Shown: positions 29,966 through 31,018 of the stretch, one piece after another
How the letters are laid out: every line of letters begins with the position of its first letter
Numbering within the stretch: the first letter of the stretch is position 1
From: Candidatus Yonathbacteria bacterium RIFCSPLOWO2_01_FULL_47_33b
Lineage (GTDB): Bacteria > Patescibacteriota > Minisyncoccia > Phycocordibacterales > UBA1550
Direction: 5' to 3'
NCBI GenBank assembly: GCA_001823575.1
Contig: MHUW01000018.1
Location: 1-35,502 of the forward strand
Length of the DNA: 35,502 bases
Made by a program: the position numbers and the translations under genes
Notes under the pieces: generated by a model
What the model saw: the letters and a program-made list of their open reading frames with translations, nothing else
The model's database searches: none
What the model was told of the DNA's origin: nothing

Positions 29966-30014
29966 CACAACCAGCAAAATACCGAGGAAAAACCTCGGTA
30001 TTTTGCTGGTTGTG
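29966..30014. repeat. 22 bp perfect inverted repeat
   Basis: CACAACCAGCAAAATACCGAGG-aaaaa-CCTCGGTATTTTGCTGGTTGTG. Confidence 0.9.
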
Positions 30015-30039
30015 AGCGTGGACGAATTAGCAAATTCGC

Positions 30040-30118
30040 GTCCTGGACGTTAGACTTGAACCCTCAAGGATCACTCCATACGCTTCTCAATTACCAAATT
30101 GACCTACTGGGTGAATCA
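30040..30118 (-). pseudogene. tRNA-Leu-like remnant (anticodon-position GAG), D-arm/anticodon 5' half deleted
   Basis: Reverse complement ...TTGAGAAGCGTATGGAGTGATCCTTGAGGGTTCAAGTC aligns with tRNA-Leu(CAG) CTCAGAAGCGTATCCCGTAAGGGTTGGGAGTTCGAGTC. Confidence 0.45.
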
Positions 30119-30165
30119 GCTGATTCGCATCTTGGATGTAAACGACGTACGCATTCTGAACTGGG

Positions 30166-30247: not shown

Positions 30248-30317
30248 ACTCAGTTCAGAATAATAAAAAAGCCCAGTTCCGCCACACGCTCGCGGTCATG
30301 CCATTCTAGCATATTTA

Positions 30318-30441: not shown

Positions 30442-30554
30442 GCACCCCAGTAGGATTCGCCTCTTCCTTCGGTCGAGACTATCCATTTTGTAGCGATTCG
30501 AGAATACTCTCATCGCCAAAATGGTGAGCCTACGGTTCGAATCCTATTGGGGGC
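30442..30554. repeat. tRNA-3'-end-mimicking hairpin element P1 (next to tRNA-Lys)
   Basis: GCACCCCAGTAGGATTCG...CGAATCCTATTGGGGGC arms match tRNA-Lys T-arm/acceptor; core TCGCCTCTTCCTTCGGTCGAGACTATCCATTTT shared with P2. Confidence 0.8.
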
Positions 30555-30567
30555 GTTACTGATAATA

Positions 30568-30601
30568 AAAAAAGCAGGGAAGATACCCTGCTTTTTTATT
30601 A
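30568..30601. terminator. Terminator between tRNA-Lys and P1
   Basis: AATAAAAAAAGCAGGG-aagata-CCCTGCTTTTTTATT hairpin. Confidence 0.75.
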
Positions 30602-30677
30602 TGGTGCCCCCAGTAGGATTCGAACCTACGACCGTCTCGTTAAGAGCGAGCTGCTCTACCAACTGAGCTATAGAGGC
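30602..30677 (-). tRNA. tRNA-Lys(CTT), CCA encoded
   Basis: GCCTCTATAGCTCAGTTGGTAGAGCAGCTCGCTCTTAACGAGACGGTCGTAGGTTCGAATCCTACTGGGGGCACCA. Confidence 0.93.
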
Positions 30678-30813
30678 ATATATTTACTAATCTAACTCTA
30701 TCACTTTTCTGTGCCTACCAAAGTTTATGGCCGAGCCACGAATCAGCTGATTCGGCGATAGAGGCATTTGGTACTTGAATTATTATACACAAAAAACGAA
30801 GAAAGGGAAGTAG

Positions 30814-30919
30814 TGCCCGGGGTGGGACTCGCCTCTTCCTTCGGTCGAGACCATCCATTTTAATAGTCGCTATGCTCCTTTAAAATGTGGGGCCTCTGGT
30901 TCGAGTCCCACCCCAGGCA
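30814..30919. repeat. tRNA-3'-end-mimicking hairpin element P2 (next to tRNA-Leu(TAA))
   Basis: TGCCCGGGGTGGGACTCG...CGAGTCCCACCCCAGGCA arms match tRNA-Leu(TAA) 3' end; core TCGCCTCTTCCTTCGGTCGAGACCATCCATTTT shared with P1. Confidence 0.8.
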
Positions 30920-30937
30920 TCTCGCTCTGCTTATTTG

Positions 30938-31018
30938 TGCCCGGGGTGGGACTCGAACCCACATATCTTTCGATGGGAAATTTTAAGTTTCCTGTGTATA
31001 CCATTCCACCACCCGGGC
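30938..31018 (-). tRNA. tRNA-Leu(TAA)
   Basis: GCCCGGGTGGTGGAATGGTATACACAGGAAACTTAAAATTTCCCATCGAAAGATATGTGGGTTCGAGTCCCACCCCGGGCA. Confidence 0.93.

Follow-up and report, generated by a model that had tools for sequence, protein, structure and literature searches.

Features of the Locus

The window, that is, the whole 35,502-nucleotide stretch of contig MHUW01000018.1 analyzed here, contains two hairpins, P1 and P2, each located beside a tRNA gene and each composed of a core flanked by two arms, A and B. P1 is a hairpin of roughly 115 bp and is one of about 50 copies found. The features of this region are as follows.

30442..30459, + strand: P1 arm A, a direct-repeat copy of the 3′ end of the tRNA-Lys(CTT) gene, which reads as antisense tRNA on +
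30460..30537, − strand: P1 core, 78 bp, with conserved CC-GNA-GG tips, the AGGCY/RGTCT helix, and a CCATTTT/AAAATGG hairpin; RNA-like on −, the tRNA strand
30538..30554, + strand: P1 arm B, an inverted copy of the tRNA-Lys 3′ end
30561..30601, no strand: symmetrical (bidirectional-type) terminator hairpin in the gap between P1 and tRNA-Lys, read from the sequence; it differs among copies
30602..30677, − strand: tRNA-Lys(CTT), the host of P1 (ARAGORN, Rfam)
30604..30622, − strand: segment C of tRNA-Lys(CTT), from the T-loop to the 3′ end, the template of both P1 arms
30813..30920: P2 as a whole
30813..30831, + strand: P2 arm A, a direct-repeat copy of the tRNA-Leu(TAA) 3′ end (19/19)
30832..30901, − strand: P2 core, 70 bp, of another loop subtype than P1
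30902..30920, + strand: P2 arm B, an inverted copy of the tRNA-Leu(TAA) 3′ end (17/19)
30921..30936, no strand: short linker between P2 and the tRNA, without a terminator (sequence reading)
30937..31018, − strand: tRNA-Leu(TAA), the host of P2, with the copied segment at 30937–30955 (ARAGORN, Rfam)

In the orientation of the tRNA, the order at these loci is the tRNA (ending in C), the hairpin or terminator, B′ (inverted C), a core of about 70–80 bp, and A′ (direct C), which begins at nt 56 in the T-loop and extends slightly beyond the end of the tRNA. The initial annotation had described P1 as an element at 30442–30554 that is unable to fold as a tRNA and whose arms copy the T-arm/acceptor part of the adjacent tRNA-Lys. 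The sequence and coordinates were confirmed as described, and neither ARAGORN nor Rfam calls P1 a tRNA. The 5′ arm matches the antisense of the tRNA-Lys 3′ end at 15 of 19 ungapped positions and is exact over the 15 positions adjoining the T-loop; the 3′ arm matches the 3′ end at 16 of 19. The core that P1 was said to share with other sequences is found as a motif at exactly two sites in the window, 30457–30489 (P1) and 30829–30861 (P2), with none expected from 100 shuffles. Relative to shuffled sequences, the folding z-score of P1 is −7.25 on + and −6.8 on −. A third copy, P3, adjoins tRNA-Lys(TTT) on a different contig of the same genome.

Distribution of the Family

A covariance model built from five copies identified 23 distinct copies in 10 of the 16 genomes of the genus, two reverse-strand echoes being excluded. 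A second, trimmed model matched 37 of the 398 order genomes, which fall in 19 of 179 genera; in the class and phylum samples it matched 17 of 388 and 3 of 384 genomes, respectively. These samples overlap and contain the window's own genus, and the weakest matches are uncertain. The distribution is patchy and multicopy, with at most seven matches per genome. The relatives with names are MAGs of Candidatus Yonathbacteria and Nomurabacteria, so the host belongs to the Patescibacteria.

An exact pattern search of a genome contig collection returned nothing, and a degenerate pattern returned six named stretches from the same collection. Matches in viral contigs to a 17-mer of the core (L004–L006) lie in unrelated contexts, look like chance, and were set aside. 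A further covariance model, R2, was discarded for its almost complete lack of consensus structure, which arose because the arms were out of register. A search of Rfam 15 gave nothing at the gathering score except tRNAs, and a lax search gave only subthreshold matches. No description of such an element was found in the literature searched.

Match of the Arms to the Neighboring tRNA

Among the 51 strong copies analyzed, 40 have a tRNA gene on the opposite strand no more than 200 bp away, and most of these distances are 42–60 bp. The neighboring isotypes in this set are Lys, Leu, Asn, Arg, Met, Tyr, Ile, His, and Gln, and a Val tRNA is the neighbor of one weaker match. The arms were compared with the tRNAs for 41 copies, namely these 40 and the outer member of one tandem, at 209 bp. 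Arm A scores 15.6 of 19 identical positions against its own tRNA and 10.9 of 19 against other isotypes; the observed sum was not reached in any of 20,000 shuffles. Nor did any of 20,000 shuffles do so for arm B alone, and the result is the same for the acceptor half and the T-stem half taken separately. The check suggested in the initial annotation thus succeeded: most relatives of P1 adjoin a tRNA and match it. The proposal of an undescribed tRNA-associated element with a shared core and host-matched ends is supported by 41 tRNA-linked copies, and no Rfam family matches.

A few strong copies, found in G136 (C16), G236 (C5), G049 (C7), G005 (C14), and G220, have no recognized adjoining tRNA, which speaks against an element specific for tRNA genes. 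Five tRNA-less copies face a short reading frame (L072, L079, L082, L086, and L085, just past the terminator), and four of the five frames share ..FRT(F/L)(D/N)W...

Structure of the Core and Decay of the Arms

The core without its arms has a mean folding z-score of −2.48 on the tRNA strand, with 33 of 41 copies below −2, and a mean of −1.82 on the other strand. The stems of the core hairpins covary, since their sequences differ between copies with complementarity kept; hairpin 1 also varies in length, and the tips are often CC-GNA-GG. The helix AGGCY/RGTCT contains four Watson–Crick pair types at one position together with a conserved G–U pair on the tRNA strand, counts that are biased in that the search pattern partly forces the 3′ strand. 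The folding energy of the whole element is equal or better on the tRNA strand in 41 of 51 copies. The G–U counts of the whole element are alike on the two strands (148 vs 145), and thus the assignment of the strand rests on the z-scores of the core and one conserved G–U pair. The RNA-likeness of the core is found on the tRNA strand, opposite to the one on which the core was initially described. The recognized or active form would then be a folded strand of tRNA sense, either RNA or single-stranded DNA. Some copies (L027, L028, L032) carry an extra domain, GTCACGATAAATCTAGGACACTGCGATTTT..AAAAATCGGGAGCC, between the core and arm B.

Arm A differs from the tRNA at 79 positions, where arm B equals the tRNA 45 times and arm A 9 times. 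Arm B differs from the tRNA at 216 positions, where arm A equals arm B only 9 times. Neither arm thus compensates for changes in its partner, and the arms are therefore independent, decaying copies of the tRNA end and not a maintained RNA helix. The decay of arm B is greater in the acceptor half than in the T-stem half, and the better-preserved arm is sometimes A and sometimes B. An apparent covariation of the arm helix, with 7 of 11 pairs changed on both sides, was rejected as proof of an RNA helix because the changes within a locus are uncompensated; it appears because the copies adjoin different tRNA species. Paired arms of this kind mimic RNA covariation without a conserved helix, which is a warning for similar analyses. 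The hairpin arms originally described for P1 thus pair in a way that looks like a helix, but this pairing shows no compensatory change. They are better explained as target duplications made when the element was inserted.

A functional small RNA has also been considered, such as a regulator or decoy associated with the tRNA, its arms maintained as complements or copies of the neighboring tRNA end. One such form would be a trailer switch, with B′ free to pair with either A′ or the tRNA end. The independent decay of the arms without compensatory change makes this reading rather improbable, and so do the orthologous tRNAs of sister species, which lack the element or have a different core, and the 361 of 398 order genomes without a match to the trimmed covariance model. 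The structured, covarying core with its conserved G–U pair on the tRNA strand, and the constant position of the copies relative to tRNAs, are the observations that such an RNA would account for. The regulatory RNA suggested in the initial annotation is not supported for the arms, whose mismatches are uncompensated; the RNA-like core may have such a role.

Probable Insertion Footprint and Apparent Copying Between tRNA Genes

The direct repeat formed by arm A and the tRNA is exact over 18–24 nt, from C56 in the T-loop to slightly beyond the end of the tRNA, where it stops, as seen in about 17 well-preserved copies. The interval between tRNA-Lys(CTT) and tRNA-Leu(TAG) is empty and 31 nt long in G003, G008, and G013; the occupied interval in G009 is 188 nt long, a difference of 157 nt that includes the repeat. 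Compared with the empty genomes, G009 contains a 19-nt direct repeat of the tRNA end at the insertion, and its A′ (CGAATCCTACTGGGCGCAC) and the following 10 bases lead to tRNA-Leu, collinear with the tRNA end and 10 bases of the empty sites. The BLAST alignment of G009 with G003 and G013 at this site gives 89% over 152 nt. The far flank of P3 corresponds to the sequence directly after tRNA-Lys(TTT) in G012 (85% over 143 nt, BLAST), a less clean case because this flank is a family-II element that is itself repeated. From the comparison of occupied and empty sites, A′ is at the original position, and the extra DNA consists of the hairpin, B′, the core, and one copy of the tRNA end; as a result, the tRNA gene stays intact. 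Under the insertion model, arm A of P1 would be the displaced original end of tRNA-Lys(CTT). Direct repeats permit precise deletion, and the empty sites could therefore be losses.

P1 and P3 have near-identical cores and different arms at different tRNAs. Near-identical cores are also found at tRNAs for His, Arg, and Arg in G136, for Lys, Gln, and Ile in G362, and at several tRNAs in G073. The ends are thus acquired on site and not carried along, and the element appears, from these sequence comparisons, to spread among tRNA genes by copying itself. In G005, two tandem units with identical cores and different terminators follow tRNA-Arg(CCG), and B′ of the inner unit, the fresh copy L019, matches the tRNA over 17 consecutive nucleotides.

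The match in L019 would also be expected from quasi-palindrome template switching, in which a short hairpin element arrives near tRNAs with generic, T-loop-like ends that strand switching during replication then rewrites to the local tRNA sequence. The TTCGAA of the T-loop is palindromic, and C, the terminator, and B′ form a long quasi-palindrome, as this process would use. It predicts neither the collinear empty site with its 157-bp difference nor the sharp stop of the A′/C repeat at the tRNA end, however, and we consider it unlikely as an account of the whole element. Template switching may be the origin of B′.

Candidate Movers and Known Systems

The gene for Cas1 (PF01867) was found in none of the 16 genus genomes, and the element is too small to contain genes. 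Only 4 of the 16 have a reverse transcriptase, and most have one Xer-like tyrosine recombinase; neither tracks the element. Y1 transposases are present in 14 of the 16, and both G003 and G015 have elements and no Y1 match. The flanks of 12 scanned Y1-transposase loci do not contain the element motif. All four candidates were rejected as the mover since none tracked the element, and no transposase, integrase, Cas1, or reverse transcriptase was found in association with the copies. The searches, which covered Cas1, reverse transcriptase, integrase, and Y1, found no autonomous parent transposon.

Integration by a tyrosine recombinase usually restores the tRNA gene and leaves a direct repeat that spans the T-loop through the 3′ end. 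Such a repeat is seen here with the displaced end on the far side, and the copies might be residues of an integrative element, either attL/attR left by deleted islands or a mini-island whose attachment site in tRNA genes is of the T-loop type. This is very unlikely, because one core uses many tRNAs and has ends that match each isotype, whereas attP holds one fixed tRNA end. Elements of this kind have one fixed attP and tRNA per lineage, unlike the similar cores seen at several isotypes in one genome; their sites have no inverted copy B′, and the single Xer-like recombinase of most genus genomes also speaks against them. Prophages, ICEs, and satellites that integrate at T-loop attachment sites through tyrosine recombinases likewise leave the tRNA gene whole, with the insert flanked by a direct repeat of the 3′ end. 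The present element differs from these in its very small size (157 bp including the repeat), its lack of an integrase gene, its tRNA-matched ends that change from copy to copy, and its inverted copy.

The closest known process is casposon integration, in which the site is determined by the palindrome of the T-psi-C loop and the 3′ end of the tRNA becomes duplicated, this duplication also separating copies that lie in tandem (PMC9939771). A target duplication at the tRNA gene 3′ end bordered by the T-loop, and tandem copies separated by the duplicated target, are found here as well. Unlike casposons, the element has an insert of about 140 bp without genes, a duplication of about 19–22 bp (about 15 bp in casposons), many tRNA isotypes used per genome, and an inverted copy of the target without terminal inverted repeats of its own; the inverted arms differ between copies, as local copies of tRNA ends do. 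It is not a casposon, because Cas1 was tested and not found in the genus and the inverted ends are derived from the target.

MITEs and the REPIN/RAYT system are similarly short, multicopy, noncoding, hairpin-forming, and presumably moved in trans, and MITEs are also flanked by a target-site duplication, as is the element. The arms here are copies of the target and not of the element, unlike in both systems, and no such hairpin flanks the 12 scanned Y1 loci, unlike in REPIN/RAYT. The families of Rfam 15 share with the element a structured, RNA-like core, and none beyond tRNAs reaches the gathering score.

Other Cores and tRNA Fragments

A second core family (GAGCCGGGGTCG..), of the form GGCGGAGC-hairpin-GAGCCGGGGTCGNGAG..ACTTAGTAACTCGTGACC, is located directly downstream of tRNAs in the same orientation (L173–L202; L133–L145; L001, 1330–1480), often with the same C/B′/A′ architecture. 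Its signature motif, with one mismatch allowed, is found in all 16 genus genomes, with up to 24 matches each. Five examples, one of which is a third core type from G012, fold better on the tRNA strand. The third type (L138) reads GAGGCGGTGCC..GACAAA..TTTAGTCGAAGGAGA and has similar tRNA-matching ends.

Copies of the 5′ end of tRNA-Lys(CTT) (GCCTCTATCGC.. or GCACCCATAGCT..GGTAGGCCC) are located upstream of the gene at 30700–30775 of the window and in L135, L136, and L143, and possibly reflect the same process of duplication at 5′ ends. Near tRNA-Leu(CAG), the window contains a partial copy of its 5′ end (GCGTGTGGCGGAACTGG) and a decayed tRNA-Leu-like sequence (30249–30310 and 30000–30130). Weak relatives with CCCTTCG..CTCAGGA and TTTTTATAGTCRCTTCGTTCCTTAAAAA are present in G310, G289, and G196 (L089, L092, L099, L106); some adjoin tRNA-His, they have no tRNA-matching arms, and they perhaps represent a wider hairpin repeat family.

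Proposed Mechanism and Significance

P1 and P2 are probably copies of a small, nonautonomous insertion element that targets tRNA genes specifically at their 3′ ends, a reading drawn from sequence comparison. In the proposed mechanism, the palindromic T-loop (TTCGAA) would direct strand exchange, a staggered cut of about 19–22 bp would give rise to the direct duplication, and the insertion event would also copy B′ from that tRNA end. The conserved part, the core, would presumably be what is recognized, probably in the form of a folded tRNA-sense strand, and the enzyme would act in trans. A plain staggered-cut model leaves the inverted copy B′ and the differing terminators unexplained.

A broader proposal, which we advance tentatively and regard as possible rather than probable, is that the family is a new, minimal class of patescibacterial mobile element that may be RNA-mediated. 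A protein-less structured core of about 75 nt would enter the T-loop of many tRNA genes, and both ends would be rebuilt from the target at each insertion as one direct and one inverted copy of the tRNA end, with at least one further unrelated core family following the same logic. The genomes of Patescibacteria are very small, and few mobile elements have been described in them. Insertion at tRNA 3′ ends by an element that spares the tRNA and derives its own ends from it would amount to a new strategy, with casposon-like targeting in the absence of Cas1. The family poses a concrete search problem, namely, what moves the element, and it accounts for many of the odd inverted tRNA fragments between the tRNA genes of these genomes.
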